Shown here in pieces: positions 8,258 through 56,857 of a DNA stretch of 64,000 nucleotides. Position 1 is the stretch's first letter. Each line of letters begins with the position of its first letter. A program made the position numbers and the translations under genes. The stretch is from assembly GCA_000310025.1 (NCBI GenBank), contig FN649733.1:1401351-1465350 (forward strand), in the 5' to 3' direction. The notes beneath the pieces are model-generated. The model worked only from the letters and a program-made list of their open reading frames with translations. It did no database searches and had not been told where the DNA came from. The DNA is from Ectocarpus siliculosus (lineage: Eukaryota > Sar > Phaeophyceae > Ectocarpales > Ectocarpaceae).

Positions 8258-9224
8258 TTTCTTCCTTGTTCTCTTGGCCTCTCTTTCTCCTACCCTCGAA
8301 GGCTCACACGTAATATCTATGAGCTTGTTGGGGAGGGTGCAGCGCCCGGGAGCAGATCGATGGAGGCATAATCACAGGGGGGGATGAGTTGCAATCCTCC
8401 CCGGGAACCGTTCCAGGACGGTTCCATGGATTGTTCCGCACGGCAGCCGGGGTAGTGTTGTAGGTATAAGAGAGATTTGAGCACCACTCGGCCTCGCACA
8501 TCAACTGGATATGATTATGTCTATTCATATCTATGCATCATCATTGCAGCGGCAGTCTGAGCAACACTGATGATCCCCACCGATATAAATAGAGAGGTGC
8601 TTGTGGAAAGTCTGACGGTTATAGATTTCGGCGTCTGTAGGGAACAATCGCTTCAAACCATGCCACCACCCACGAGCAACACTCTTGCAAGTCCAGGCAA
8701 GAAAGACTCTTCGACGTTTGTCTACCGACAGCGGAGCACCCTGGGGACGCCTTTCCCAGCCGATCAAAAAGACAAAGAAGGAACTCATTACATTTAACCC
8801 CACCCCTTCACCCCCCCCCAGTGTTGGCCATCGGGGTTGGGTTTTCGTCGCTGCTTGGCAGTGATGTTGTAAAACAAGCCGATTCACTTCGTGAGCTCGG
8901 CAACCAGGTTACCGCCTTTTTTTTTTTGCCTTTTTTTTTTTTTGCGGTAACGATGAATGGTGGTCTAGTAGATTATATTGTGTGGGGTCGAGAACCCTCA
9001 CTCCGCGCAAAGGGGATAATCGCACGTTGTGTTAAATTGGTCAAACACCCTCGAGGCAGTTACACAGAGCTTACAACTGTCTCTGGAAGTTAAAGCACCA
9101 GAAAATAAATTAAGTCGTACGCAGCTGTCGTCCGTACGCAAGGAAGTAACCACAAGATGCCGACCACCCTTAGCAGGATGCAGCGCACCCTTCATGCGAC
9201 TCGCCGAATACCTCACGGCGCTTT

Positions 9225-9350
9225 GCGCTTGGTGATGTGAGAGCCTGGTTCGGTGAGAACCCGGCGTGCTCCGTCCCGGCTTTGTAGGGATGCGAGGTCA
9301 ATGGTCTCACGACTACGGCATGGACGACTATGAGTACACCCCCCCCCCCC
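9225..9350 (+). mobile_element. SINE copy A, poly-C tail
   Basis: The body runs GCGCTTGGTGATGTGAGAGC ... CCGTCCCGGCTTTGTAGGGA, then the 3' tail GGTCAATGGTCTCACGACTA ... GAGTACA and a C-run. Copies B (14606-14750), C (26512-26612) and a gap-truncated copy D (33047) share this order. The last 50 bases also match the 3' end of the LINE at 19360-20710. I see no convincing tRNA-type box A and B pair, so the origin of the head is open. Confidence 0.75.
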
Positions 9351-13300: not shown

Positions 13301-16300
13301 TTCGTCGATCCTGCCGACATGCTGTCGCTGGCTGGGGACCATACCCCTGTTTCGTCTGGCTAACGGTTTTTGTACGCTCCGTTGGCATCCGGTTTGTCCA
13401 CGTTGTTGTCGGCATGTCACAGGTAACTGTCGTAAATACCACAACGCCGCACACCAGGGAACTGTTCTTCTAATCTCAGGGCGTACATAAAAAATAATAT
13501 TTGAATGGGAAAAGTTGAGAAACAATAGTTCAGACTACTGGGTCAAGAGTGGAGGACTTGCACTTATCGTACTCGAATCCTGCTGTTTTCTACCTCTCTA
13601 TACAAGATAACGTCAAAAGCTTCAGCGCATGATCAGGAGTGAAGGGCGCGCAATCTCGTGTTCGTTTCCCTCCCCACCCTACCCCCCTCGCACGAAAAAA
13701 CACTAAATGGCGCCATCGGGCGAGCGGCTGCCATGCCAAGGCATGCCGCTTTTCGCTGCTGCCAGACACCCACCTTGACCATCGTCAGGCCCAAGGGGTT
13801 CGGCCGATGTGGGCTCCGCGTCCCCAGGACACCGATCCTCTTGCCCAGGCGAGGAGGGCTGCGCACGAAGGAGGCGGAGAGGAAGTGGCGCAAGGAGGGG
13901 AAAGGGGGCGAAATGGGGAAGACCGAGGGAACGCGCTTAGCGTTCATCACGCTCGGTTATCACACCAGCGGCGTGGGAGGCGCACAAGGTATAGGTCATG
14001 CCCTCGCGTTTAAGAGCCGAACCACTGGGCCATTGAGCGAGTATGTATTTCAGGGCTGTCAAGGTATATGTAAGGGAGATACTCGACGATCAGGCACGGC
14101 AATAGCCTGACATTTCGAGGAGTGAGACTAGCACCCGGGGGGAACGTCGATCAAGGCTGACGGTAGCAGCCCTGACCCACTCTCACTACCGCAGACCCCC
14201 CATGGCAAGAGCCGCCACGTTTTCTCTCAATTTTCCACCCTGCGGAAAACACTCACCAAACTTTGGTCAGGAACGTTTGCCTGAGCTTGTGCCTCGGCCG
14301 CCGGTACTCCCTGGCTCCGCCGCCCCACCTTTCCAACTGTCCCTTCACCCTCACGCCCTCCGTCGAACCCGTCGCCTTCGCCGGTGCCACTTTCCCTTCC
14401 CCCTGCGCCCCTTCCTCCCCCGCTGCGGACGCCGCCACCGCCGCCGCCGGTCTTTCCTCCGCAACCCCGTTGACCGTGGCGTTGGTGTTGTCGTGGAAGA
14501 CGAACACGAGCCAGATGTGGGAAAAGTCCGTCATTCCTATCAGCGCGGGGTAGCCCACGATCCCCCGGTCCAGCGTTACCTGTGCCGAGAGGCGCGCCAG
14601 CGGCAGGGGGTGGGGGTGGGGGTGGGGGAAGGAGGGTGTACTCATAGTCGTGCATAACGTAGTCGTTAGACCATTGACCTCGCATCCCTACAAAGCCGGG
14701 ACGGAGCACGCCGGGTTCTCACCGGGCCAGGCTCTCACATCACCAAGCGCGAAGGGGGGGGGGGGGGGAGTTGGCGCGCTCTTCGTAGGAGACGTGTTGC
14801 TTGTAGAGGTACGGTCGGTTGAGGACGCCAATTTGGGGACAAAATAGACCGGGGAGCACAAATACATAAACGCATGGTGGGGGGTCAAGCGACGCATGGC
14901 GGTGGGGAGGGGGGGGGTGGGGCTCTTCGTTCAACGTGGCAGCAGACATTGTACCATCAAGCAGCAGTTGTTTCCTTCCGCAGCCACAAAATGCCGACGT
15001 TTGCGCTCCTCCCGCGGACGGTTAGCGGTAGAAAGTAAAAACAAGCAATCGAGCGCAGCGACCAAGACCCCACCAAGATACAAACACAGCGGTCGTGAAA
15101 CTACCGAGTCCACCCACGCGGGCGAGACCCACAAACCGGCGAGTGACCCATGTGGCCGCGCGTTCCCAGATAGCCTAGCCCCTAGCAAACGTCGATCCGC
15201 GGTGGTAATAGGGTCTCGGCGGGAAAATTCAGCAGCATGAACTGCTCTGCAGCCCCCCCCCTCCCCCCCCCCCGGGGATTGGAATGTTGCACGTGGGACG
15301 CTGTTCAGCCGACTTGCCTTTCCCCTCGAAAGGGGCGTTATGCTCCCCTGCCTAGGCGTTCCTCTTCGATCTCTGAACGGGGTGCTGCCGACGGCGTGAC
15401 CGTTTGACGGCGAGAAACGACAAGCAAAGAAAGAGAGAGTAAGAGAGAGTAAGAGAGAGAAAGAGAGAGAGTTGGGGGGGGGGGGGGGCAAAAAAAAAAA
15501 AAAAAAAAACCCCAACCAAAGTTTTTTCCAAAATCAAGGCGGGACANNNNNNNNNNNNNNNNNNNNNNNNNNNNNNNNNNNNNNNNNNNNNNNNNNNNNN
15601 NNNNNNNNNNNNNNNNNNNNNNNNNNNNNNNNNNNNNNNNNNNNNNAGGGAAGAGAGAAAAATAAGGAAAGTGGGGGGTGGGGGGGGCAGAGAGAGAGAG
15701 AGAGAGAAGCGCAAGCAAATGTTTCGTCAGAGCTCAAGCAGGACGAGGAGGGGGCCGGTGAACCGCCAAAACAAGATGGGACGGAAGAAAAAAAAGCAGA
15801 ACTCAGTCAAGACGATAAGTATACCTCATCCTAGCTAAATCATTTGAACAGCTCGAGTACAATCGGCGTGGTTTTGTTCTCAGTTCTAGGCCAGGGCGCC
15901 GTCACAAGCCGCCCACCTGATAGTCCCGATCGCCGTGAAATTGTAGCCGTCCTCCTCTTCCATTTCCTGACAAAGGGGTCGCACGCAATCATGGGTAGAC
16001 GCGACATGTGCAGTGGTGGTTGGATGATAGGGAGAAGGGTACGACACAAACGGGTCGGCACGACGGATGGCCTTTCCTCTCGGTCCCGAGAAAAAAGGGC
16101 GCGCACCCACCGGTCAACAACGCAGAACCCGAGAAACTACCAAGCGCGCGGCAGGCGGAATGGAACGCATGGAGACACTCACTTGCTTTTCCGCGCGGAG
16201 GCGTCTCTCTGCCTCGGTGCGCCCTCTTCGCTCCTCGGCCCGCTGCCGCCCCTCCTCGGCAACCTGCCTGTCCAGCTGGCGGATTTTGGCCGCTCTCGCC

Positions 16301-18580: not shown

Positions 18581-21500
18581 ATGCCTTTGGCCGATGCCGT
18601 GTTTGCGACCATGCTACCTGTTGCGGTCCTATGGTCGGCTGTTTCCAGGCCTGCTGCCTGGCTTCGTGGGAAGGACGCGACATCGCCGCTACCGCCGGAT
18701 GTTGACCTCTCAGGTAAAATGTCGTCTAGGCATCTACAGTATGCATAGGGAGGCAGCAACTGGCACACCTTTCATCTCTACCTGTCAGGACATCGAGTCC
18801 TGCATGCACACAGGTATACTTTGAAGTGTACGAAATAGGCATGCGTTCAGCAAGGCCATATATCCCTGAGAACTGCTACTGGGGTCAATTGCGTAGTAGA
18901 TACTTTGCTGGAAGAATATGGACGCGCAAAATGTACTGACGCCTGAAATCACCCTCCCCCCCGTCTTTACGGCCGACCGACGGGGGTGAGCGCCGCTGTG
19001 TATGCGTGCGCGCGGCAAACTCTGGCCGGCACGCCAGGTCTCTGTTGTTCTTAGCGGTTGCTGTAAGGGGGTGGACGGCGCTTGTAGTGCAAATCACGTA
19101 CTGTAGTTTCGACTGAAGCTACAAGTATCAGGGAGCAAGGGTCGAGCACCCCCACCCGACCCTTGCTCCCTGATACTTATATTATAACAATCGTTCCGAA
19201 ACAACGCCCTTAGATTGTCTCGGCTCAGGCTGGCGGCGTCATTCTAATGGTCAGCCGGAGAGTGCAGTCGAGGCTATTTTTCAACCCGTACACCCCACGA
19301 GCATCGCACGCATGCAAGTAGTACCGGCGAAACAATGCCCCCCCCCCCCAGTGGTCAACGGATGACTTTGTTGGTATGTCGGACACCCCTGAGGGACTGC
19401 AACTGCAAATTGACGCGGCGAAAAAGTTTACTGATAAGTGGAGATTGTCTGCCAACGTTACGAAAAGTGCCGTCATGGTATGCAACGAGGGCAGGGAGGA
19501 ACCAGTAGAACATAAATGGAAGTGGGGGATCGAGGAGATTGCAGTAGTGGACCAGTACACATACCTCGGAGTAGAGATCGCAAAAAATTGCTCGTGGAAT
19601 GCACACATGTCCAAGGTAGCGGAAAAGGGCAAAGCACGAGCAGGGAAGCTGCACCCAATACTCGCAAACCGGCACCTTGATACACGCATCAAACTGACGG
19701 TTTTGAAGAGCGTAATCGTACCGCCGCTGGAGTACGCCGGAGAAGTATGGGAAGGAAATAAGAAGGTAGTGAAAGAACTCGAGGCGGCGCAGATGAAAGC
19801 AGCGAAAATCATCCTAGGATGCTCCAAGCGCACAAGTAATGCAGCAGTCAGGGCAGAATTGGGGATCCAATCCCTACGGTCGGGAAGAGACGTAAGGAAG
19901 CTGACATGGCAGTACCGCATGTGCGGGATGGGAGAGGAGAGGTTGCCGAGAATAGTATGGGAGGCGAAGTGGGCAAACAAAAAGAGGGGTAGACAACCCA
20001 CGGAATGGGTCAAGGTTGTAGAGGACGTATGGAAGGGATTGGACATCGACGAATATGAAACGCTGGAAACGGAGGGTCTACAGGGGTTCAAGAAGAAGAT
20101 ATCTGTTGCTTGTGCCGAGAGAGAAGAACAGAATCTAAGGAAAGAAACCAAGGATAAGGAGGGTCTAGAAGTGTACGGAATGTTGAAAGAAGGAATAGGG
20201 TTCAAGGATTACCTACATGGACCAATGGATGCAGGGACAAAGCTTAAGGTCAAATTCAGGACCGGGGACATAGGCCTTCGCGAACGTCGACGAAGACATA
20301 GGACGGTAGACGACGAAGACGACAAGTTCAAATGCGATTGCGGCTTCGAATGCGAAGACAGTGTTCATGTAGTCGCGGAATGTCCGTGGTACGAAAAGGA
20401 GAGGGAAGTGTACATGACTGAGCTGGGAAGAATACAAGGGACGTACAGGGAGATGTTTGAGGCATGGAATAGAGAGGAGAGGACGGTAGCGGTACTGGGG
20501 AGTAGAAAGTGGTTTGAAAAAGCGGGAAGTGACATCGGTAGGATAGACAGACTAGGAAAGACATTTTTGAGCCACCTTTGGCAAAGTAGGAAGGAACGAT
20601 TGACCATCGGTGATCGGTCCTGTGGGAACAATGCTCCGTCCTCTCGAGGACGCGTGGTCAATGGTCTAACCGCTAAGGCATGCAAAGCATAAGAGTACGC
20701 CCCCCCCCCCAGTGGTCAACCCCAAGTAATGCTGACGGACATCAGTCTTCCGAGCAACATCAGCCTAGTGCAGTCTTGGTACGTTACCCGTTGCACCCGA
20801 GCTGGCGCACACGGGGATACAACAAATAAGAGACACCAGCGTGCCGAGCTCGCCCACAAACTAAAGAAACTCACCGCTGTGTCGCCATCCCCCTGCCCTA
20901 TCTGTGTGTCATGCTGTGCTCCAGGGCGGGTGGTGATCGTGACAGGGGCGAACACAGGTGAGTTATTGTCGGTGTGGAATGCGTTTTATCCCCTTAAGAA
21001 AAAAGACAAAATATCGGTACGTATGCACATAGAGGGTGTCCCCTAGCGCGAGATATGTATCTCGTGTTGGTGTTTTTAGCCGTCCAGCTTGGGGGGGACC
21101 GCTCGCGATACAATTTCCCGCCGTAGACGATGTCGCCGAAGGACCTCTCCTGCAGCTCTGACAGAGACCACGTATCACTTCTGTAGGAGGTGTTAGGACA
21201 AGCAGCCACAGATGCCCAGTGCTGCTTTGCAATGCCAGCAGGCAGCGCACATCGAGATGCTAGCCACATGTCCGTCTGGCTCGGCAGAGCCCAACGGTAA
21301 TAAAAGCGGGCCATCATTTGTGCCTTTTTTTAACATGCATGACTCTGAGCGTGATGTGCAAGAATCTTTCAGCTTGATTGGCTTGGGCCGCATTGTTTAA
21401 AACTAGAAAATTCGAGAGAAGCCCTGCACTGTCTCTGTTGGTTCGAGCTTCCAGGGTGCTTGGTTGTCAAGCGCTTGCATGATTGTGGGTTGAGGCGTTG

Positions 21501-24500
21501 TTAAATTCCGTGGTTGAATCGCTTCTGCCGTCCGGACAGTTGGCGTGCCATGAAACGACAGAGTGCAGTGGAATTGACCCTTTTCAAGGGGTCACATCTC
21601 CCCCAACGTCTGTCAAGGATGATTCCCTCTTTTCACATTAGTGTCGTGACGATGAGATGTCTAAATATGGTGGCGAAAGATCCGGGTTGGATTCGGCCTC
21701 CAACGTACAAACAATGGTCGGGGACTAAGAACAGATTTTCAAACTTGTGGTTTAGTGTGGTAGACAGCAAGTATGCACGTGGTGCCCCCTTTTCTCAACA
21801 CTATCGGGAAACATTCCGTGCATATTGCTGTCTGGACACCCTGCATCATGGTTTCCGTGTTTGCATCTCACCCACCACGAACGACTGCCGTATGGCGAAT
21901 TTTCCCAGGGATTGGCAGCAGGACTGCGTTTAACCTCGCCAAAGCCGGGGCCAAGGTGATCATGGCTTGCCGGTCGCTTGAGCGTGGCGAAAGCGCTCGC
22001 CAACAGCTGGAGGAGGAGATGAGGTCCGTGCTCTTTTTGCTGTGCTCACGTCTTTTTAGTTTGATTGTAACCGTGCTCTTTTGCTATGCTCACGCGTTTC
22101 GGTTGGATTGTCATCATCCGCGCGCATGGGTGAAGTAAAACGTGACAGTTGGGTGCCCTCTATCGTGCGGGTATGTGCCAAGCGCTTTCTATTCGTTACA
22201 CTAACCATCTTGATTATTATTATTCCATATGTGCCAGCCAAGTTCGCCATCATACGGGGCACCTACGCTTTTTGACCCGCGCTATGGAGGGCACCCGACT
22301 TTTCCCGTTACCTGCGAGCCGGATTGTTCCTGATCGCATCGTGCGTCGAGGCGATTGAAACATTCACGTTTACACCGACATCGTGAAGGGTATAGTGTGC
22401 CCCGCTCCCATTCCGACACGCCTGAGACGCTGAATTTCACAGCAGGCACCGTGTTGTATTCGCACAGTGTGTGTCCCCTCACCGGTTTTGGCCATTTCTG
22501 AGAAGAATTTTGCCTTGCGCAGCGTCGGTGAGCTAGCTCGTTCAAAACAAAGACGTTCTTGGTAACATGGCGGCCGTTTTTTGATGGGTGGACTGCCTGG
22601 GCCGAACGCCGAAACTTACTGCCCTCCCTAATTCCCACGAGAAGAGTCACGGCACCCTGCTTAGCATTCGCCCGTCTCGTGGGCCGTGTCGCGTTCCGTG
22701 GCCATGTCCAGCTCTTTTTGTTCGTGTTCGACGGCGTGCTCATTGTCTGGAGCTCCTATCGAGTCGATGGAAAACACGGCCATCCAGGACAGGGTCCTGG
22801 CAACGTGGACGTTGTGCCTCCCGCTCGCACTCGTGGATGGCCATGTGTTTCGTTGACTCGATGAAGCCAGACCTTGGAGCATGCCGTCGAACGAACGCAA
22901 ACAAGACAGCTCTGCGAGACGATGTGCGAGATAATCCGTCCGTATGTTTCTCCTCTTGTGTCGTGATCAGGGAAACGTTGTCGAAGGTGGAAGGCGGAGG
23001 CGGCGCGTCCGCGGCGCGGCAAGGCACGCTCGAGGTGATTGATTGACATGTGTATCACCGGTTGAGAATACCTGGCCAAATTACCACAGACCAAGACGGA
23101 ACAGTTTCGTAGGCTACTTCCGTGGCATGTTTGGAGGAATTTTTTGTGTTTGTACTCATGCATTGAAGGGTATTTTGCCCTTGTGATACGTGTATCCCGC
23201 TGCTTGGGCAAGAACATTTCAAACCATTACATGCTCGCTCGTTGAAAAGAGGTGGCCACAATGATCGCACTTCCTTACTACCATAGGACGGGTTCTGTGG
23301 AGATATTTACGGTACAACACTGTATCCAACGTCTGTCGAGGTCGACCCCCCCCTGTCACACTTTGTAGGGGGGGTTTGTTGTCGGGGATAGGCGTTTGTC
23401 GTCTCGCAGGTACTGTGTGATCTGACAGGCAACCAGGGGGAATGCCTCCAAAGTTCTATGGTTGTTCTCGAGAGATTTTATTTCGACGCGATACCCCAAT
23501 CCCGCTGGTGCTTGTGTTCGTGCGCGTGTCTACTGGGGCGTCACTACCAATAGGTCATGAAGTGCGATCTGAGCGAGCTGGAATCTGTGCGCACATTCGC
23601 TCGGGAGTTCAAGGTCAAACACGGCGATCGACTCGACGTACTCGTCAACAACGGTAAGTGTTGTTCTTGCTTAAACGCTTCGGTGGGGGGGGTTGTGCAA
23701 CGGTTTTCTATTCTCAAACCACGGGCAGGTTCTGGCCCGGCCTACATGTTCTCTGTCCTTCCGTGGGTTGTGGCTCGGTTTTCGGTTGTCAAATCCACGG
23801 GCAGGTATGACTGGCCCAGGCTATCCTCTGTCTGTTCGTCGATCTCTGCCTGTTTTTGTGAAAATCATAGTGTCATAGGAGGCGGGAAGACGTGGTATTT
23901 TTATTTTGCGATGTCGTGCTTGCATCAGGCCGGAAGGTTTCGTCTGTGCTCGGCGGAGAAGGCTCGTCGTTTACGGCGACGAAAGTGCGATGGACGCGAT
24001 GCTGCTAAGCACAAACGCGCCCTTCTCGTGAAAGGTCGCCCATATCGGCCAAGGACTTTTTACCAACACTCAGGGGTTTCAACGTTTGAGGACATCAGCG
24101 AAAATGAATAATGATCATTAGTTTTTTTTCCCATCATCCCGTTCATGTAACCATCGCGTCTACGTACGTACCTTACGATCGCCTCCCAACCGCAGAGCTC
24201 CGATCTGGGGTGTTCACACAGACCGATCCATGAAGGTTGCAGCATCCCCTTGTCTCAAGTACACCGAAAGCAGAGTCAACTGCTAAACCACACCCACTGC
24301 TTCGTGCCGCCCACTTCCTCCCTCTCCGCCCCCCGCCCTCCCTCACTTTGCAAAAACAGCTGGGGTTGGAATCACCGACGGTCCCCGGGTGACCGCCGAT
24401 GGCCTGGACCTCGTCTTCGGGGTGAACTTTGTGGGGCACTTTTGCCTCACGAATGAGCTCTTGCCGCTCATCCAATCCACCCCGGCTGCACGGTGCGGAA

Positions 24501-27140
24501 ACGCGGAGTGTTGTGGGTGGGGCGCACCAGGGGAGGGGCACACGAGCACATCATTGGTTGTTTTTTGAGTGTTTGGTTATCGATTAGCGAGGGCGAGATC
24601 GCGATCCACATGCCCTGCCTGGAGAATCTTCGTTCATTGTGTGGGCTTCGAATAGACTTAAAATACGCCCCATCATCCAGCCGGTTTTATTCCCACTCAC
24701 GGCAAAGACTGCAACACATGCCCTTCGGCTGTGGTATTATCTTGAATTGGTAGTCCTTCTTCCATTGTTTGCATGTTTTCTAAAATCTTGTGTTTCCAAA
24801 TCGACCTGTGAAGTTTTTTCCGCGGGCAGTTTCGTACGTACTCTGGGGGGTGCTGTCGCCCCTTCAAGCGTGATTCCGTGCACTGATCGGTGTTCTTGAC
24901 GTTCGTCTTTCGCCTCTTGGGTACTTCGCTACGACACCCTGTAGCCGCTGATATATTTTCACGGCACCCACTCTGGACTGAGTTTTCCTTCTCGTGTAAC
25001 TCTATTTTCAAGTGATGTGCCTCCAAGCGGGCCATCCCAACATGCTTGGCCCTTGACCTGGGTGGAGGCTTGTCAAGTGGTCAACTCTCCTCTTGTCACG
25101 CGCATTTACTTGCCACTTTGCCAGTGCGGTATACACGTTGTGATGCACATCAGCTGGAACTATTGCCGCAAACCTGTAAACCATCAACCACAGATTTGAC
25201 AAGAAGTCCCGGGCTGGCTGACCCCAACCTCTTTTGTGTTTGTTCACTCATCTCCGTTTCTTCTTCGCACAGCGTGGTGTGTCTCAGCTCTGTGATGCAC
25301 CACAGTGGGGGCACGGATTGGGAATCTGCCGTGATGGGGCACCCGAAGCGCAGAGGTTCGACATACGCCGACAGCAAGCTGGCAATGGTTATCTTCGCCA
25401 AGGTACGGAATTTCGAGAGTATGGCTGGATTGTTCATGGCCAGCTTGTGGACCCACCACCTCTCCATCTACAGAGCAAAATCGATCTGATGAGGCCTCGA
25501 GTCCAACAGCAGGCCTGAAGATAGATAGATAGATAGATAGATAGATACCCACAGGGCACAGCTGCTTCGGTCACGGGGTCAAGTAGTGTGTGACGCAGTC
25601 TTTATCTCATCAAGACAGGTAAATGATCGTTTTTTGTGTGGAGATCCCGGTCATGAAGGTACAATCTCATCTCCCAACGTCGGTCGATGACGATTATTCC
25701 CTCTTTTCACTGTCGGCGTACTGTTTCTTTTACGGAGATCCCTTTCATGAATGTACAATCTCCCAACCGTCTGTCTATCGAGGTCTATTCCCTCTTTTCA
25801 GCTCTGTCGGCGTTGTTGTACTTGTCGCTGGTTGTCGGCCCTCTTGTGAAGACTCACCGCCTGCCTCCGTCGAATTCGCGACTACAGTTAACGCCCGCGG
25901 TCAAGAACCAAACCATACATTAACTAGAAATATCGACCACGAAACACACCCCCAGCCGTGGATCCTACACTAAACCCTAAATAATGACCGACGCTCGACG
26001 GTGGTGATGAAATGGAAATTGAGCCTCGACCCCAAATTGACGTTTCTTAAGCACGGGCGCTAACTGTTGTATTCCAGGAGCTCAAGAAGAGATTCGCCGC
26101 CGCCGGCTCGAGCGCCACCGCGGTCGCGGTTAACCCCGGGGCCGTCCGGAGCGACATCTGGCGGAACGTGCCCAAACTGGTGATGCCGGTGTTCGACCTC
26201 TTCATGAGGTTCTTGTTCCTCACCTCGGAGCAGGGCTCCTACACATCCGTCCGCGCGGCGGCGCTGCCGCTCGAGACCGTCTCCGGTGAGCAGTACCCTT
26301 CGCAGGGTCTGTGTACTCTTGAGTAATCTTGTTGGACAAAGCATGCAATCAATCGGGCAAGTTCGGTTAGGGTTAGGGTTAGGGATACGGTCTGCGTACC
26401 CCCTCCCTGTTCTGTTCCCTCATATAAAACTTAATTTCTGGCGACGACGGTCCCCGGTGACAGAGGCTTGAGAGATGGTTTTTATCTGGAGGCATTCGGG
26501 ATGTTTGTTTTGGGGGGGGTGTACTCATGGTCGTACATGCCGTAGTCGTTAGACCGTTGACCTCGCATCCCTACAAAATCGGGACGTAGCAAGCTGGGTT
26601 TTCACCGGACCATGTTTTAGGGGGGGTCTGTTTTGTTTTGTTTTTTCGGTTTGCGACGCCCATTTGTGGGATCTGTACCTGCTAGGAGGTCACGAAGGAC
26701 CATTACCGTGATCATGTTTTGGTTGCCGGCGATGCACGAGCGGCGCGGTCACGTACTTCTCCTCCTCCTCGCATCTACCCTAACACACACACAAACTCTG
26801 AGTACGCTTTCCGACCCCCGCCCCCCACGTACAGCAGATTTTCTGCTGACATTTCACGTATTGTCGGGTACATACATAATAATCCTCCCGTCTACATCCT
26901 CCCGCTCTTTGTTTTATGTCAAACGGCGCAGGGAGCGGCTATTACCAGCCCTACTGGATGCCTTTCAAACGCCCCTTGCCATTCGAGGTGTTCGGTCCCT
27001 TCGTCGGCTGCGCCCCCGGACTGCCGAAGCTTGTGAAGGACGAGCCGGCGGCGACCTCGGCCTTGTGGACCACGTGCGAGCGGGTGATCGAGGCCGCCGG
27101 AGCTGCCCGCGGTGATGCCCCTGGTGCTTCGAGGGGATAA
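18581..27140 (+). CDS. Short-chain dehydrogenase/reductase, nine exons, 374 aa
   Basis: An NAD(P)-dependent oxidoreductase of the retinol-dehydrogenase-like SDR class; the substrate is unknown. Exons: 18581-18713, 20925-20957, 21909-22023, 22971-23034, 23554-23653, 24360-24492, 25273-25402, 26078-26285 and 26932-27140. All phases agree and the total is 1,125 nt. The N-terminus has a hydrophobic segment (residues 1-25) suggesting a membrane anchor or signal. The cofactor motif TGANTGIG is at residues 51-58, spread over exons 2 and 3. NNAG lies at 147-150. Catalytic Ser199, Tyr224 and Lys228 (YADSK) are present. NPGAVRSDIW follows in exon 8. Exon 2 is only 33 nt. Intron 1 (2.2 kb) contains a LINE insertion, and introns 3, 7 and 8 carry other repeats. 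Function beyond the family is not assigned. Confidence 0.9.
19338..19359 (+). repeat. Left target-site duplication of the LINE
   Basis: Twelve C followed by AGTGGTCAAC, immediately before the 5' end of the truncated LINE. The same C-run plus AGTGGTCAAC follows the LINE at 20700-20720. Confidence 0.8.
19360..20710 (+). mobile_element. 5'-truncated non-LTR retrotransposon (LINE) in SDR intron 1
   Basis: The insert starts inside the reverse transcriptase catalytic region (DDFVGMSDTPEGLQ, from the Asp-Asp of motif C). It keeps an open frame of about 440 codons to a TAA at 20692: the RT thumb (YTYLGVEIAKNCSWN), a long connection region, and a Cys/His cluster (CDCGFECEDSVHVVAECPWY) that looks zinc-binding. 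The 5' RT and endonuclease parts are missing, so the copy cannot move by itself. The frame stays open, suggesting recent insertion. The 3' end (GGTCAATGGTCTAACCGCTA, AGGCATGC, AAGAGTACG, C-run) is the tail shared with the SINEs. Flanking duplications are at 19338-19359 and 20700-20720. It is sense to the host gene. Confidence 0.9.
20700..20720 (+). repeat. Right target-site duplication and poly-C tail of the LINE
   Basis: Eleven C then AGTGGTCAAC. The C-run is both the element's tail and part of the duplicated target, so the exact element end cannot be fixed within it. Confidence 0.8.
22140..22311. mobile_element. MITE-like element in SDR intron 3
   Basis: Imperfect terminal inverted repeats of about 35 bp: CAGTTGGGTGCCCTCTATCG then TGCGGGT on the left, and the inverse of AAGTCGGGTGCCCTCCATAG then CGCGGGT on the right. 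The interior is about 90 bp and AT-richer. There is no coding capacity, and no target duplication could be fixed by eye. Confidence 0.6.
22715..22910. repeat. Imperfect inverted repeat in SDR intron 3
   Basis: Left-arm blocks TTCGACGGC, GTCTGG, ATCGAGTC and CGGCCATCCA recur inverted on the right (TGGATGGCC, GACTCGAT, CCAGAC, GCCGTCGAA). The arms are about 85-95 bp with many mismatches. This is possibly an old foldback element. It ends about 60 bases before SDR exon 4. Confidence 0.5.
23697..23845 (+). repeat. Two-copy tandem repeat, about 78 bp, SDR intron 5
   Basis: Both copies contain CGGTTTTC, TCAAA, CCACGGGCAGGT, GGCC and CTCTGTC in order, starting near 23700 and 23778. It lies shortly after the exon 5 donor. 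Confidence 0.6.
25519..25547 (+). repeat. (GATA)n microsatellite
   Basis: About seven GATA units in SDR intron 7. Confidence 0.95.
25638..25820 (+). repeat. Tandem pair of an SDR-intron dispersed repeat
   Basis: Two adjacent copies carry GGAGATCCC, TCATGAA, GTACAATCTC, CCAAC, GTC and TATTCCCTCTTTTCA, then CTGTCGGCGT. A related copy sits in intron 2 near 21590-21650 (CCCAACGTCTGTCAAGGATG then ATTCCCTCTTTTCA) and a shorter one in intron 4 near 23308-23350. The family seems concentrated in this gene's introns. Confidence 0.6.
26365..26384 (+). repeat. Short interstitial telomere-like repeat
   Basis: Three consecutive GGTTAG units plus GG in SDR intron 8. It is too short to mark a chromosome end. 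Confidence 0.85.
26512..26612 (-). mobile_element. SINE copy C in SDR intron 8, antisense
   Basis: Read on the minus strand it gives ATGGTCCGGTGAAAACCC ... CGTCCCGATTTTGTAGGGAT ... GGTCAACGGTCTAACGACTA ... GAGTACA and a C-run. Likely target duplications are GTTTTGGGGGGGG (26507-26519) and GTTTTAGGGGGGG (26614-26626). They differ by one base and again contain the homopolymer. It is shorter at its 5' end than copies A and B. Confidence 0.8.
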
Positions 27141-31700: not shown

Positions 31701-34700
31701 ACGGTACCCAGCAAGATACACTCCCTGTCGGGGGTTTTGTCGTGTCCAATCCGTCGGAGTCCTAGCCGTGCGAATCCCTCATTCGTCTCCCCGCCCCCCT
31801 TTCCGCCCTACCCATGTGTGAGCCTCGCATTGGTTCACATCGGCGTGTCCTTGCCATGCCCTCATCCCGGCCAACGTACACGGAGACTTACTGCAAGGCC
31901 AACTCCCACGTGCCGCTGCCCCTTTATCCCGTTGGCCGTGGCTTTTCTACGATCCGCCCAGAAACCGTCTTGGGGCCAAGCGTTCAGGTTTAAGCTCAAG
32001 CCGTTCGGTCGGCTTTCGTCCCGTACGAAGATCGTCCAGATCGAGCTCAAGGGCGAGGTGGGAGGATGCGGGGTCGACGGGATGCCTCCTCGTAATATTT
32101 TGTTGTTTTGTGTCACCTATCTCGCTTTCAAACGGGCCAACCCTAGATTCCGCCTTTGGACCGGAACTACGGTCCAACACCATTGTACCATGGTGTTTCC
32201 GTTTTTGTTTCGCAACCTCCCGTCTTGCGTGTTTTCTCCTATGCCTAGCTGTTGTGCGCCCAGCCGCGCAGGAATCGAATGAGCACCTGGGTTTGATCGT
32301 ACAAGCGCGAAATCTTGTATGAAAGACGATATTGTTGCGGCATCCGGTAGTACTGCTGTCTGCGTGATGAGCAGCGTCCGGAACCCACTTCGAGTTCTCT
32401 CGTACGCGCTTTTTAGCGCCCGAGAGGTCTCCGCCTCTTGTGAAGCCTACTGGTACTGGCCTTAGCGCTTTGCCGACCTACAGGGTTGAATTCGTAGCCT
32501 CCAATCAGGGAGCGGGACATTTGTGGGTGTTTCGGTACAGTACGGGGATGCAGACCTTGTTTTTATGTTTTTCAGCGTCGTGCCACCCCAACCAACAGAT
32601 CCCCCCCCCCCCCCCCCCCCCGAGGGCAAAGGGCCAAAAACAACGGGAAGGCCCAAAGGGAAGACCCCCCCCCCCCGCCCGCCACTCCCTTGAAAAATCG
32701 GGACCCAACCCACCCCTCCCGTTTTGGGGGCCAAAAATGGGGCCCCCCCCCCAGCCCCCGCTGTTTAAAAAAGCGGAGGTGACCTTTTTTGGGTTGGGGA
32801 AAAACCCCAAAAAGGGCGGGCCCAAACCCCCCCTCAAGGGGGGGGTTATTTAATTTTAGGGGGGGGGGCGGAGGAAGGGCCCCACTATGGAGGGGAAAAA
32901 AGGGGAAAGAGGGCCCCCCTTGTGTTTGTGGGCTGGGGGGGCGGGGNNNNNNNNNNNNNNNNNNNNNNNNNNNNNNNNNNNNNNNNNNNNNNNNNNNNNN
33001 NNNNNNNNNNNNNNNNNNNNNNNNNNNNNNNNNNNNNNNNNNNNNNAACGACTACGGCATGCACGACTGTGAGTACCCCCCCCTCGCGCCGTTCATTCCT
33101 TTGAAACTTCGTGACCATACGTACCCTTCGCGTTTTGGTGCCCATAGCTGGGTCTCACCTCGCAGCCCCAGCTGTTCAAAGAGCCGGAGCTGACCTTGTT
33201 CGGCTTGGTGAAGACCCTCAAGACGGCCGCGCACGATCCCCGCATCAAGGCAGTCGTCATCGACTTCGACGGGCCGGCGCTGAGCATGGCCGCTACTATG
33301 GAGGTGAAGAAGGGCGAAGGAGTGCACCGCTTGTGTCTGTGGTCTGTGGTGCCGTGGAGTTTTCGACCTCAAGGCCACCGTTCCCAGCGCACGCGGTTGC
33401 CTCCGAACCGTACCCCCGATGAACGTGTCGGCTTTTGGTGTTGCTGCCTTTGACAGTGAAAACCGTTCCGATCTCTCTGCCTTGCACCTTCCTCTGCCCG
33501 TGCTGATCTTCGACTTGACGTTGTTTGTAGCAACTGGTCGCAAATGTTTTGTGTTAATAGAACACCCTTCTTCTTCGACCCCATTCCCTTCCGAGGCTTG
33601 TCCCTGTCCTTGACGAACCCCGCTGCCCTCAGCGCTCTTTCTGTAAATCCTGCCAGTTGGAGCAGGTTCGGCGAGAAGGTTGTGTGATTATTGGTTGCCC
33701 AGTGGTTATTTGTTTTTTGGCATGTCGAAAAGAACGAATGCATGTATCAGAATGTTTGGCATTTTGCTTCTCCCGTCTCATGCCTGAAATGGGCCAATCG
33801 ACCGAGCGGGGTTTGACGGAAGATATGATTTTTTTTTACTCTTCTGCTCTCCGTCGTGATTGGTGTTGGGTTCGCACGCGGACCAATTGACGACATCGGT
33901 TGTTTCTCTCTCATACCGTTGGCGCCTTCGAGCCTTGCACCCTCTCCACGTTCGCCTCTAATCACACGGCAGCCCGCAAGCATGTACCGACTAATGTTGC
34001 TCGGACGGCCGGCAAACCGATATTCAACGCCACAAAAGTGATTTTTTTGCTGTCGGAATTGGCAAACGTTGAGGTTTGCGACACTCAAAAACTTGTGTGG
34101 TCGTACAGTAGTCTTCCTTGGTTTCGTGTTTGAAAGGAAGATCCTTGTTGGCTGTGCGTGCACTCGGTAGGTCATCGTGTTTGGCAGCATCCAGGAATAC
34201 TCACGTCAACCGTCTAAGTCACTGGACATGTTTCACTTGTGATTTCTCGTGTCGTTTTCGCTTTATCTTTCATTTTTACTTTTGTTATTTTTGTCTTGCT
34301 GTTGCTGCGGACCAGGTCCGGCGAGCGATGGACTACTTCACCCAGAGCGGGAAGCCGCTGTGGGGTTTCACCGAGAGCTCTGTGGACTTAACCCTGCTCT
34401 GCCTCATGGGAGGCTGCACCCGGGTGTGTGATGCGTATCGTGCATCGTTTCCCGGTTCCTGTGATTTCTCTGTTGTTTGACCGTTCAACCCTTGGAATGG
34501 TACAGCGCACCTTCAGAGCTGCGGCGACTGCAGCTCGATGTGCGGGTGGCCATCTGCGTCTGTTTGTGGCTCTTCGCGCGACTTCGTTCTTGGTTTTCCT
34601 TGCTCCGTCGTTGGAGACTGACATCCGAACGACCCAGGGCCATCCCGACTTGTTGTTTAGAAACAAAACAGCCCGCCCACCCACCCCGCGTTTCGTCGCG

Positions 34701-38382: not shown

Positions 38383-41300
38383 GGGGTCGTTTCATACCCG
38401 CAGATCGATGGCGTGGTGGTTAGAGTCAGCTCCCCGGGGGGCGACGCCTCGGCGTCAGACCTGATGTGGAGAGAGGTGAGAAATGGCCACCCCCGCGTGT
38501 ATGAGGTAGTAGCTTGTGTCTGCTTGAGCAAGGTGCGAGGGTCGCTTGTCCGACGTACAGCCGCACCGGCCTCTCTTGCTCCTCTCCTTTAGACGCGAAG
38601 TCTGGTTTGTGGTAAGTCCCCCTCTCGCCGCCCCTCCCATGGTTGATGTTTCGGTTTTCACCCAGCGGTTCCTCGGAATGAAATCCCGCCTGGGCTTGTG
38701 GTCGAAAAACTCTACAAATCGCAAGACATGGAAGCGCAGAAATGCCCACCACGAATCACCTTAGCTTATGCTGATGATGGCGCATAACCTCGCGTGCACG
38801 GAACAGACAATACAAGACCCCGATATCGGTTTCGTTGTCGATGAAAAAGGTGCGGCGGCTGCGTGAGTCCGGCAAGGTGGTTGTGGCCTCCGTTGCCGAC
38901 GTTGCGGCGAGCGGTGGCTACTACATCGCCATGGGCTGCGAGCGGATCGTTTGCGACGAACTGAGCATCACGGGCAGCATAGGGGTTGTGTCGGCCCTGC
39001 TCAAGATTGGGGAGCTTCTTGAGAAGGTGAGTTTTCGAGGGGGTTGTATGCTTCTAGCTGCAGTAGTCAAGAACAAAATTTCTCTTTGATGCCGCGCGAT
39101 GAACGAGCTTCGTGCTATTGTTCAATTGTGACGGGTTCATCTTCGAGAACTCTAGACCTGGAGGAGTAAGCACGGTGGGTGGGGAGTATGGCACCATGTT
39201 GATGTGTAAGGGGTGCAGCACCCTATAGGCATGTATGTGCATGTCCGCCTTTTCGGTTCGGTCGACTGTGTGACACAGGCTCCCGCTGGCTGCAGCAGTT
39301 GTCGCAACCAGCATGGGGACGATGACGATTTCGGTTGCCCTACGTAGTGCGGCCGTATTCTATCGATAGGCGATTCAGTTTTTCCTGCTGAACGAAACCA
39401 CCAAACCAGAGGAAGACAGACTCGACTATGACTGACTACGGCGGATGTGCCCTTGCCGGAATCTCCCCCGCCCACCGCTGCGTCCAGATCGGCATCACGT
39501 CCGAGCTGATCAGCAAGGGCAAGTACGCGGAGCTTTTCTCGGCTAGGAGCTTCACCGCCGAAGAGGACGCGTACTTCGGGAGGGGCGCCATGGCGGTGAG
39601 ATTACCCGACTGTCATCACCGTCGCTTTTGTTGCTTGCCCCCGCCATAGAAGTATTTCGTTTCCACCCGAGGCGCACTGCTGTGGTCCGAAAAACGGAAT
39701 ATTTTGTCGCAGCCTGCGAGATCAAGTCCTCTTGTATCAAGGCTGGTTGGATGCGATGGGCTTCCGACTGTTTCCTTGCGCTGGATTAATGTCGAAGGGG
39801 GCAAGCTTCGCCGCACGGTTGAGGAACTTGCCTGTGTAGGTTCAGAATTGACCCGTAAGGGGGTCTTCGTTCTGTGTGGGTCCCTCCCGCTTGTGCTCAC
39901 TAGTCGTCGGTTGAGCACCTTGGCGGTTTAGTCCGTTGTATATACGAGCTCTCACGGGCGTTGCGCCTCCCATCGGAAGGAGAGTACGGCGCATCTTCGC
40001 ACACATACATCGATTTCCACGTCTTCGTGGTAATGGGTCCATGATCTGCAATCTTCCGACACCCAATACTGGAGATAATGCGTGTCCTCTCCCTCGGGAC
40101 GTCTTGTTGTGATGGGCCCATGATCTGCAGTCTACCGACACCCACGACAGTTCCATTAATGCGTGATTCCCCGCCTCCCGCCACCCTTCCCTTCAGAGTT
40201 ACAACGACTTTGTGGGCAAGGCCGCCAAGTCTCGCAGGATGCCGCTGGAAGACATGCAGCGCCGTGCGCAGGGGAGAGTTTGGACGGGGGCTGAGGCGAA
40301 AGAGTTGGTGAGTCTTCCCTCCGTCGGTGTTGGTATCGGTGCAAGCGCTCCGTGCGTATGACGCCCCCAGTGTTGTGTGTGGGCTCGCTGGGAGTGAACT
40401 GGGTGTGAGGTGCTCCGTGCCAACACCGAGTGACATTGGGTTTCGTCGAGGCCCTAGCCTGATTTTCTCCGCCCTCCAAGCTCTGGAGGTGAAAGCACCA
40501 AAAATTAAATTTATGTCATACACAGCTGTCATCCGCACGCAAGGAAGCGTCGAGATTGCTAGCGCTGCTGACCTCGCGGTCTTATAGTGTCTGCCGTTTC
40601 AAACACGAGCAGAGAGCATGCTGCGGCCAGAGAGGGGGGTGAACTTGAACTGTCGTCGCGAGGTTTCGCCTTTGTTCTGTCATGAGTATTCCTAGAGATT
40701 GTACCAGTGAACGACTTTCGCCAACACGGGATCGATCCTTGAAAATGAAGGTGATGTGCGCTTGGGGTGCGCTATTAGGAATTCACTTCAGAGTGATTGT
40801 TGGCAAAAGTGAATGTTGATTCAAGTGAATCTAGAGTGAACCCGATTCACTAAGGATACCCGAATCACTCTCTCGATTTCACTCACAATTCACCCACCTT
40901 TGTCGTCGTCAACCTCTTGTGAAGTCTACCCCGTGGTTTATCTCTTTTGTGCGCGCCTGCGGGTCGCTCGCTTCTTTCGTACATAACAACAGTCAACCAC
41001 GTTTGAACTCAGCCGTCATGAGGCTTTGGAATTGAATATCTGTGCACGTAGAGCGCACGCACGATCTACTGTCAAGACTTAAACCTAGATTCACTCAAGA
41101 GCACGAATGGTGGGCACAAACATCAAACATTCGCTCGAGAGGCGTCACATGTTTTTACTCTTGAGGTGTTTATTGGTTTTGTATGTACCCAAGACAGAGT
41201 CCCGTTTGTCTCAATGCATACGCCTGCGGGGGTCGGCTCGATTGCTTTTTGTGAATGATATTTTACCATTTCACTCGAGCGTCATTCAAGATTCACTAAA

Positions 41301-48144: not shown

Positions 48145-51100
48145 TCACGAGTCAAAGTCATCGCCGTACTCTTCCTCTTCCACCTCCTCCTCCCCCTCCT
48201 TTTTCTCCTCCTCCCATTCCTCCTCGTCTTGGTCCCAAACGGCATCCTGCACCGCAAAGGGAAGGGCAGACCATTGTGAAGGTGGTAATCAGAAAAGGCC
48301 GGCGCGTGACCCTTCAAGTCCTCAACTGTCTGTTAACTGGATTCACGGCGTCTACCGCCATTGAACGACCACTTCACCTGTCTGTCTCGTGCTCCGCTAC
48401 GGATCGCACTGGCCAGATGTGCTCTCTACACAGTGTTTCCATAACAATACAAGGAGAGCGAGGGGAACCCACTCACAGATTCTTTCCATGCAACATTTCA
48501 CGACGAATCCAATCGTACCAGTTGCCAACTGTGACAAAAAAATATTGTGCGATCCGATCGTGCTGATCCCGGTAGAAGGTGCACCTGCCGGTTTAATTCC
48601 AACTGGCATTTTTTCCGGGCGGCATTGTGTCGCTTGCCAATGTTTTCCGGGCCCGTAGGGACCAGGGAACCCGACCTACCTCAAACTCCTCCTCATCGTG
48701 TTCGTGGATGCTGTCGATCGCTTTCGGCGCCACGAAAGGTGGCGGCCCTGGGGCAGCATCGTCAGCATCCTCGTCCACTTCCTCGACCAACGAGTCTTCC
48801 GCCTGAACAGGACCGAGTGGTTCACACCAGGGTCCAACAAAAAGTAGGTAATATCTTTGAAACCAATCGCATGGGAGCAAAACTCGAAAGCATTGGACTG
48901 ATGGTACAGTACGAGGGGGGGGGGGCGTACTCTTATGTTTTCCATACCACGTACAGTGCGAGGGGAAGTTGCTTTTGGAAAGTGCACTATTTTGTAACCG
49001 GGGTGAACGCGGCGAGGCACACCAAGTTTACTTCGCTCTTCTTCTCGCCGTGGGCCGTGCAACACAGCAACGCTAAACAACCGTTGCACATACCGTAGAC
49101 GACACAAGATAGCACACCCCGGTGATAACATTTTGGGCTTGAAAAGTAAGTTCACCGGGTGTGGTATCCTGTGGGGTGTGTGGTATCTTATGTAGCCCAG
49201 GACATAAAGTGCAGCTCGCTTGGGCCCTTAAGAGGATGTGATAAACCAGGGTGGTGATAGCACGTCCGAACACCCACAGGGTGTGTTTGGTGTGATAAAT
49301 GAGGGGGGTAATGGGGTGTACTAGCACGTCCGAATACCCACAGGGTGTGTTTGGGGTGTGATAGTGAGGGTGTGTGATAAAAGGTGTTATAACACTTCTT
49401 GTAGAATTGAACCGCTGCTGCCGCACGCTTGGTTGGTATTGCGGGCGTGTGATAGCAGTGCCTGTACCAGCATTTCATGGCTTTGTGGTTCTGCGGAATG
49501 TGGTAAAACAATGGAGCTCAACGGAGGTGACGAAACTCCTGAGCACATGACTCGTTGGCCACAGAGTGCGCCGTCCGTCCTGCCCCCTCACACAAAAAGT
49601 AGGCTCCTGCATACCTTGCTATTGGGTACGACCAAAAGAGAGTTTACGCAGATTTTGTGTGTGTGAGATACCCACATGCCCACGCGGCAGATGTTGTATC
49701 ACCCCGGTGATAGAAGGAGAAGCCTGCGGTGTAACCTCAGGGTGTGTTATCTTATGTAGCCCCGGTGATAAATCGATGGTTTGTCGGAAACGCCGAAAAT
49801 CATCACCGGGGTGTCGTATTCTGTGAGGTGTGTGGATTCTTATGTGGGTGTGTTATCTTGTGTCGTCTACGGTAATCGGTGTTATTGTGGCTCACATCTC
49901 CTACTGTAGCCTTGTCTTTTGGGCCAGTTGACAGCGAGAAGGTTGATGATTGCAAAAAACTTTCAGAGTGAAATCAATTCACTTGAGAATCATCGCGAAA
50001 CGTAGCAAAGGGGATCCGTCCGAGACGTGTTCCAACACACATCAGGTTGGCCCTCGAAGGATATGTAATGATGAACTCTCCAACCATCGCGTACATGGTT
50101 GCGATGTGTCAATGAAGGGCACCATTGGCTTTCTGGAATCGCCGTCGAACACTCGTCCCCTCATCGGTTTGCGAAAACAGTGCGGTGTGCGCATTTTATC
50201 CTGCATGCAATCATACCGTTCACATAGAGGTTTTCTTAATCAGTTTGCTCAACTACTGTTGGTAACAAGTCTACCACGTGGTGGTGAATAAGTACTCATG
50301 TGTTCACCTGCGAAGCGAAATCAGCATCGTATTCATCCTCCTCGGCGGAGATGTCGTTCCCCCCTTCCTCAGCTCGCACTGGGCCACCGACCGCGTCTCT
50401 TCCTACTCCTGCCTCTGCCCGTCCACGATGTCCGTTGCTGCTGTTGCTGTTGCTGTTGCTGTTAGAGCTGCTGCTTTGCACAATACTGTCGCCGTGGCTA
50501 ACGGGTCCAGTAGTGCCCCCGCGCGATGTCCTATAATCTTGCGGCTCTATGGCCGATCTGAAAAGTGATTCCGCGCCGTCAGTCCTGCTGCGAGAAGGGT
50601 CATTATGTGTGGTGCTGTCGTCACCGCTGCTTCTGTCGCAGGAAGAGTGACTGCCCCTCTCCCAATGAAAGTCGAGATCGTCGGTGGCGTTAACGGTATT
50701 TGCAACAAAGAGATTTTGTTCCTCTCTCGTGCCGCCCCCGCGGGTCGTTGCCTCTTCCACAGTTGGCTGAGACCCTGGGTTGCTTCTACCTGTGTCCGAA
50801 ATATCGTCCATCACGGCTGCTTCCGCTGCTTTGTTCGGGCGCTCAGATATCCGCACAATACCGCTAGTGAAATCTTGCCCTGTCCGAGGTACTGGCTCCA
50901 ACTGGTGTCTTGTTTCTCCCGTAATGCTTGATGCCGGCGTCTGCTTGCCGCTGATGCTGTTTGTTTTGTCGTCTCTGTTGTTGCAAGAGCCGCTGTCAGC
51001 CGCGATGCGACTAGCAGAGCCTCTGCTGTCACTAGATCGCCGATCGTCTTTCTGTCCATTTGAATGAAAAGATGATCCTCCCGCACTGCCATCTTCTAGA

Positions 51101-53640: not shown

Positions 53641-53958
53641 CGTTGGGACCGCGCTCGCCAGTCCATCCCCCTGGAAGGAAAAGTGCCGCGTGTTGGGGTG
53701 TTGCAGGATTTAAAGGTTGAAGGGGGGGGGGGCATTGCACGCCTATTAAACATCCAACCATCTCCCCGGCCTGCCCCCCCCGTCCCTGGGATAGGCCGAG
53801 GTTCCGCAAGTGAATCTAGACCTCGAAAGACCACCCAGCAAAGACAGATATACGGTCCCTAGCACCGTTGAGAGGGGGATCCTGAGTTTGACGGTTGGGA
53901 GTTACTGCTGTCGTGAGATCGGGGTAGCTCGTGAACCGCCAGCTTTTGTAGCTGCAAA

Positions 53959-55323
53959 ATGAGACTGGATCCTAACGCCCCGGCTTGGACACCGGGGTTA
54001 TGCAGCAGCAGAGAGCACGGTGAGGGTGGCGGAGTGACCGCACGCCGTGGGGGTATGCCCCAGAGAGAGGAAAGGAGAGAGTCCAGAGATGGAGGGCCAC
54101 ACTGCTCCGGGACAAGAAGACAAATCTATGGGAAGCAAGGCAAGAACCGGGGTAACTATCATCTTAGCCCGAGTGTTCGCAAACAAATAGCAAAAAAACA
54201 AAAAAAGAGGGGGAGATGGAGGAGAAGGAGGGGTCGGGCGGCGCGTAGGCTAACTAAGAGAGCAGCGCGCGCCGCGCGAAAGAGACAGCAGGGTCAACTT
54301 CTTAGGGTAGCAACCTGGAATGTGCGGACTTTGGCTGTAAACGGGGCCAATGGATACGGGCGAGTCTATAGCATTCTACACGAGGCAGCGAGACAAGACG
54401 TATCGGTGGTAGGAATGCCGGAGACACGGAGGGCAGGTCGAACGGAATTTGCAGCAGCGGGTTTCCGGGTGTTCTGCTGTGGCACGGAGACTGGTGGAGT
54501 CCATGGTGTGGGGATAGCCGTCAAGGAGTCACTGTGCAAGACATCCACGTTCACTACCGAGCTTATCGACGAACGCCTTATGGCCATGAGGTTTCTGTTG
54601 GCAGGCCACCGTGGAGCGGTCAACTTCGTAACCGCGTATGCTCCAACCGAACCTTCAACCGCCGACAGCAAGCGCGTGTTCTGGGGAAAACTTGACAGTC
54701 TCGTGCGGAGGATCCCTTCCAAAGAATGCGTGTATGTCCTATTGGATGCCAACGCGCGGACGGGAGATAGGTTGGACGGAGGGGACGGAAGGGTAATAGG
54801 AATGTACGGGCGTGATGAGCTCAACGACAATGGCATGCTACTGTTGAATTTCGTAACGGAAAACAGGCTTGCTCTCACGAACACGTTCTTCGAGACACGC
54901 AAGGGCGGAATATGCACACATACAACGGTGTGTCGGGAAACGATTGCAAGCGCCTTGTCTACATCCTGACAAGGCAGGCACATCACGGCCGAGTATCTAA
55001 CGTGGTTGTCATCCCCCAGCCGGTTCGCCCAGTCAAAGCAGACTCAGACCACAACATGGTAGTAGCCACCGTCAACCTCGGTGGCAGGCTTGCCCACAAC
55101 CGTGCAGTCCGGACTAAACCGAAACAGCAACAATTCAACCGACGGGAATTGCTGTTCGAAGCAGCACGGTGTGCGGTGACTAATCGGTTTCTCCTCAACC
55201 TCGACACACGACTGGACGAGCGAACAACCACCGCCGCGGAATTGGCGACCGACTTTACCAATGCTCTCCTCGAAGCAGCGCGGACGACCCTAGGGGAGGA
55301 ACCGCGGAGACGCCGCACGCAGG
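53959..55323 (+). pseudogene. LINE endonuclease region, frameshifted
   Basis: The first frame (53959-54969) starts with a basic R/K-rich segment and then the APE domain: VATWNVRTL, MPETRR, GVHGVGIAVKE, AYAPTE, LLDANARTGD. It runs out of frame at TGCACACATACAACGG. The next frame (from about 54912) carries on with HTYNGVSGNDCKRLVYIL and the catalytic SDHNMVVATV, then the linker to RRRRTQEW. A one-base indel explains the switch. The domain is therefore not translated intact. Confidence 0.8.
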
Positions 55324-55324
55324 A

Positions 55325-56830: not shown

Positions 56831-56857
56831 ATTTCTTTTAGCCAATTCCCCCCCCCC

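Follow-up and report, generated by a model that had tools for sequence, protein, structure and literature searches.

A LINE and an abundant short element of Ectocarpus siliculosus share a 3' tail and probably form a retrotransposition system directed to C-homopolymers

In a stretch of 64,000 nucleotides of the Ectocarpus siliculosus genome (contig FN649733.1, positions 1,401,351 to 1,465,350, analysed whole and called the window here), a truncated LINE and several short dispersed elements end in similar sequence followed by a run of C, which raises the question of what joins the two kinds of element and where the C's come from. The LINE of the window, assigned to a family termed LINE-A, ends in GGTCAATGGTCTAACCGCTAAGGCATGCAAAGCATAAGAGTACG followed by C11, with the C-run starting at position 20700, and the SINE-like copies A-D end in close relatives of GGTCAATGGTCTAACGACTACGGCATGCACGACTATGAGTACA, again followed by C's (Table 1; genomic copies are numbered with an L). 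The answer proposed here, with good confidence, is that an autonomous LINE of the APE-RT type, accompanied by one or more diverged sister families, and an abundant putative non-coding element of about 600 bp constitute a shared-tail retrotransposition system directed to C-homopolymers.

Table 1. Features of the window discussed in the text (positions count from the first letter of the window)
Feature	Position	Strand	Remark
Nearly full-length SINE-like copy A; C9 at the start (8811-8819), then body, tail and C12 (9339-9350)	8811-9350	+	copy L031
SINE-like copy B, 5'-truncated; C15 run (14754-14768) adjoins the 5' end	14625-14753	-	
5' copy of the LINE target-site duplication, C12 + AGTGGTCAAC	19338-19359	+	sequence; copy L001
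5'-truncated LINE-A copy, start within the RT domain (..DDFVGMSD..)	19360-20699	+	RVT_1 detected in copy L028
Shared 3' tail: last codons, stop (TAA 20690-20692) and 7-nt 3' UTR	20656-20699	+	
3' copy of the LINE target-site duplication, C11 + AGTGGTCAAC	20700-20720	+	sequence
SINE-like copy C, 5'-truncated; 3'-end C8 (26512-26519)	26512-26612	-	
Copy D, tail remnant next to an N gap; C8 at 33076-33083	33047-33084	+	
67-bp fragment resembling the SINE-like body (85%), without tail	40481-40547	+	
Fragment with C11, resembling the final ~23 bases of the LINE-A tail	48915-48948	-	
Second APE-RT LINE, unrelated-looking, used as control	53900-57499	+	copies end (CAA)n

The 3' end of the window LINE (20648-20710) aligns with the SINE-like copy at 9288-9349 over 63 bp at 79% identity (E 8e-9), and the copies at 14687-14623 and 26570-26512, both on the minus strand, likewise match the LINE. 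In a comparison of four sequences, the SINE-like element matched the 3.9 kb LINE-A copy L006 over 68 bp at 82% identity (E 9e-14), and the remaining listed SINE-like matches were 13-19 bases long (E 0.08-1), all to loci of the LINE 5' region. This comparison bears on the possibility that the SINE-like element arose from a LINE of the same family by internal deletion. Both elements do end in the same tail, and similar non-autonomous derivatives of LINEs exist elsewhere, but beyond the 68-bp tail the SINE-like element showed no notable match to LINE-A in the 3.9 kb copy and three LINE-A 5'-region loci, and this origin is unlikely. The derivation from LINE-A by deletion was rejected on this tail-only match, in a comparison covering LINE-A and at most part of LINE-B, the second family described below.

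The tail is found throughout the genome (189.5 Mb in 492 contigs were searched). The pattern GGTCAATGGTC-N15-40-AGTACNCCCC gave 2,468 exact matches (1,278 + 1,190), and the SINE-type core pattern gave 1,986; the control was 0 in both cases, the reversed pattern serving as the control for the former. Each search counted all matches and listed the first 100 of them. The shared LINE/SINE 3' tail claimed in the initial annotation is thus real and genome-wide, and the results support a LINE and a putative non-coding element that are linked by a common 3' tail. As for the structure of the tail, four of five tails fold nearly alike, and none of them forms a hairpin more stable than those of shuffled sequences; covariation was uninformative, with the 5' side fixed in one pattern and barely varying in the other.

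The family to which the window LINE belongs was examined with a 221-base query, for which 40 of 2,627 candidates were scored; the best 40 of 43 LINE matches start no later than base 3 of the query and reach at least base 208. All 30 LINE-A loci taken with flanks carry the tail and C's, with neighbouring sequences that differ wherever they are readable. The LINE-A copies are mutually about 98-100% identical with varied 5' breakpoints, and the family is young. Copy L028 is open for 1,247 codons between an N gap and its stop, and PF03372 (APE, 1.9e-12) and PF00078 (RT, 2.6e-25) were detected in two adjoining stretches of it. With both domains, 5' truncation and target-site duplications, LINE-A is a LINE of the APE type, predicted to be autonomous. 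In copy L027 an inverted 5' LINE stretch is joined to the forward part, an arrangement that resembles L1 twin priming.

The second family, LINE-B, encodes a protein 41% identical to that of LINE-A over the best 152-residue stretch. Its tail is GGTCAATGGTCAAATGACTACGGCAAGCAACAAATGAGTACG, and C's were present at 16 of the 16 LINE-B ends examined (16 of 40 listed). An additional tail type (..GCATGCGTTTAC..GAGTACG) occurs among the tail-pattern matches and is present in L012, which matches the SINE-like element over 71 bp at 82%. In LINE-A as in LINE-B the tail contains the stop codon, and the 3' end that the SINE-like element mimics is the end of the coding sequence too. These observations decide against the reading in which the tail is common to both elements by accident, through an insertion of one into the end of the other that was then copied along. 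Nesting is common among these elements, but the presence of the tail in 30 of 30 LINE-A loci with differing flanks, and its position at an ORF end with an internal stop in LINE-A and LINE-B, have already refuted it for both families, and we regard it as almost certainly wrong. Full-length LINEs with unrelated ends, the other finding that could have undone the proposed link, were not seen, and the longest copies read, L006 and L028, keep the tail.

The SINE-like unit is about 520-670 bp long and consists of one to three monomers of about 66 bp (GGTGTTTGCCATCGGGG..), a body with two long T-runs, and the tail; C's usually precede the monomers. Against this length, copy A of the window is near full length, and copies B-D are truncated or cut. 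T-runs terminate Pol III transcripts, and runs of at least 8 T occur in 22 of 24 SINE-like entries (23 distinct copies), so Pol III is unlikely to transcribe the unit in full and the element is called SINE-like here. Weak A-like and B-like boxes (one and two mismatches, respectively, 24 nt apart) lie downstream of the T-runs. No Rfam match was found in SINE-like copy L036 up to E 5, no tRNA was found in the window, and a viral_contigs search returned no match. As a short, apparently non-autonomous element with a LINE-shared 3' tail, it may be counted among SINEs in that sense; the SINE partner of the initial annotation is supported as a non-autonomous element with a common tail, and is at most a candidate for a SINE in the strict Pol III sense. 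At some 5' ends the tandem monomers are separated by C-runs, for example in L036 (970-1100), and LINE-A copy L020 sits at the C-run following one SINE-like monomer. Three copies, L034, L050 and L051, lie in one flanking repeat at 75-86% identity and are probably duplicates of one insertion; as possible duplicates they were set aside both as independent insertions and as empty-site evidence. In the window, positions 22000-27140 of the plus strand contain an intron-rich gene that by eye resembles a short-chain dehydrogenase, and copy C appears to be intronic in this putative gene.

The origin of the C's can be approached from the 5' side of the insertions. Of 27 LINE-A copies with a readable 5' flank, 24 have a C-run of at least 5 in the 25 nt before the 5' breakpoint, against a background of 6.3-6.6% of window positions that have such a run in the 45 nt ahead of them on the 5' side. 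The three exceptions are L030, without a C-run, L027, which is 5'-inverted, and L013, whose C-run lies across the breakpoint. LINE-A is target-specific in that a C-run flanks both sides of independent copies (24 of 27). Moreover, the bases next to the C-run are duplicated: past the C-run, 7 of 19 copies carry a duplication of at least 3 nt (3-11 nt; mean 0.78 over 2,000 shuffles, none above 4), and a second scoring gave 6 of 13 (null mean 0.71; none of 3,000 null trials reached this number). Examples are C12-AGTGGTCAAC in the window, C7-ATCGAAACAC in L004, C7-ATGGTGGCTGT in L005, C7-GACACCT in L007 and C9-ACATGGTCAA in L014; in the other 12 of the 19 the duplication past the C-run is shorter than 3 nt.

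These results bear on whether the C's form a genuine tail derived from the RNA, added without a template or by slippage and comparable to the L1 poly-A, at sites that were not C-tracts. It is true that 15 of 19 copies have more C's in the 3' run than in the 5' run, with a mean of +4.9 over all 19, but a C-run stands ahead of the 5' breakpoint in nearly every LINE-A copy and the bases after the 5' C-run recur after the 3' C-run far above shuffles, which makes a purely RNA-derived tail quite unlikely. The difference between the 3' and 5' C-runs ranges from -7 to +27 across the 19 copies, so some C's may be RNA-derived or due to slippage or assembly error; in the seven copies with duplications of at least 3 nt it is -1 to +7. 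The poly-C end noted at first is present at LINE and SINE-like ends alike, and it is mostly the target's own C-tract, which stands on both sides of the LINE copies and lies within the target-site duplication.

For the SINE-like element, an upstream C-run of at least 5 was found in 19 of 28 copies, its own leading C's excluded. Its duplications were not significant, at 2 of 25 (null mean 0.72; 748 of 5,000 null trials reached this number) or, by the second scoring, 2 of 14 (p 0.47, null mean 1.5). The duplication tests left out N-flanked copies and L057, which is a second entry of copy L045; the start of L035 extends into an adjacent LINE. Duplications nevertheless look clear in the individual copies L043 (10 nt) and L031 (5 nt), the latter being copy A of the window, where TTCA on both sides is compatible with a short duplication. 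By eye, the window copies at 14.7 kb and 26.6 kb fit as well; in the latter, copy C, C7 and then TAAAACA stand ahead of the 5' end and AAAACA lies past the 3' C-run. Among six copies truncated deep in the body (L041, L052, L053, L056, L058 and L060), a C-run is visible by eye in the 5' flank of two, L052 and L058.

Elements of this system also abut one another at C-runs, and in 15 of 15 such pairs, read from the list by hand, the two elements lie on the same strand. The 15 pairs leave out monomer joins and the L027 inversion; the raw totals are 28 on the same strand and 1 on opposite strands, the latter being L027. The LINE-B reference used for this list opened with about 157 nt of SINE-like sequence, and its entries 'LINEB 1-160' are to be read as SINE-like ends.

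A different explanation of the association would be that C-runs are merely safe, open or mis-assembled sites at which insertions survive, without any role in priming. C-runs of at least 8 are indeed common in the window (44 by hand count), and in 6 of 30 LINE-A loci (L006, L017, L019, L020, L024 and L027) the 3' C-run enters an N gap; C-runs seem to break this assembly. On the other hand, the listed LINE-A 5' flanks show C-runs by eye without comparable G-runs, so strand matters, and a different LINE lacks the C-run at its 3' ends. At least 40 places in the genome match the 3' part of this control LINE with an identity of 98% or above, and all 10 of its readable 3' ends are (CAA)n and have no C-run (the check covered 3' ends, and L080 and L087 were left out). 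We consider survival without priming very unlikely. The control LINE had itself been a candidate for a further family with C ends and was rejected, its C-run at 56848 being internal and its end being (CAA)n. Of the 44 C-runs in the window, 36 lie away from the ends of these elements, and target occupancy is therefore low.

The best reading of the tail, the C-runs, the duplications, the strand bias and the nesting jointly is target-primed reverse transcription, with a G-tract as primer and a C-ended RNA, combined with recognition of the tail. The LINE endonuclease would nick the G-strand at the upstream edge of a C-tract, and the exposed ..GGGG-3'OH would pair with the C's at the 3' end of the RNA, where the reverse transcriptase would start. 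The RNA may end in the shared tail plus C's by read-through from the C-tract of its own source copy. A second cut up to about 11 nt past the C-tract would then yield a duplication made of the C-tract and those bases. The SINE-like element would be copied by the LINE reverse transcriptase, its last 45-68 bases or so mimicking the LINE 3' end. We also lean slightly towards a wider proposition, in which the C-tract used as a target supplies the next RNA with both its 3' end and its primer site, insertions become landing pads for the same element or its partner and so build same-strand arrays, and the tail recognised by the reverse transcriptase has been carved from the coding end of the LINE.

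The partner pair was suggested to be undescribed, and this is not supported. In its available part, PMC12477816 reports RTEX-N1_Ec32 from Ectocarpus sp. 7, a non-autonomous element of about 600 bp with more than 6,000 copies, the most abundant single family, whose 3' end is conserved with the autonomous RTEX-1 and RTEX-2_Ec32; there it is described as possibly a SINE, with a 5' part of unknown origin. The present element is alike in its length of about 600 bp, its non-autonomy, its abundance and a 3' end common with two LINEs. From length, abundance and structure, not from sequences, the present pair is very probably RTEX-N1_Ec32 with RTEX-1/RTEX-2, and the partnership has very probably been published already; an RTE-X label for the LINEs would be borrowed from PMC12477816 through this inferred identity. 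In that available part no mention was found of C-tract targeting or of C-runs in the duplication, nor of a tail at the coding end, 5' monomers or internal T-runs. As far as the accessible literature goes, the C-run as insertion target is the part for which no earlier mention was found. If the proposed targeting is true, it gives the partnership a clear, testable mechanism, offers an explanation for the spread of so abundant a family, and may explain assembly gaps at C-runs beside such elements.

Shared SINE/LINE tails usually lie in the 3' UTR. The present tail overlaps the ORF end, and in this it differs from the usual 3' UTR tails of stringent-type pairs. The shared 3' tail itself is a likeness to such pairs, among them UnaL2 with the eel SINE and Chlamydomonas SINEX with RandI or L1-1_CR, in which, according to the accessible part of PMC3747384, the SINE is thought to recruit the LINE reverse transcriptase via the tail. 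The 3' repeats given there for plants and algae are A, T, ATT, CTTT, CA and CAA, and no (C)n was found among them. Literature searches, limited to what open-licence papers make available, recognised no LINEs targeted to poly-C or other homopolymers. Zorro3 and Dong are examples of LINEs targeted to repeats or microsatellites. Repeat-targeted LINEs as a class, which the available part of PMC4640811 lists in general terms, insert into repeated or simple sequence, as is found here; the present target differs from theirs in being a mononucleotide C-run with low occupancy. If the reading proposed above is true, the repeat-targeted LINEs would be extended to mononucleotide C-tracts, and a non-autonomous partner may inherit the choice of target together with the tail.
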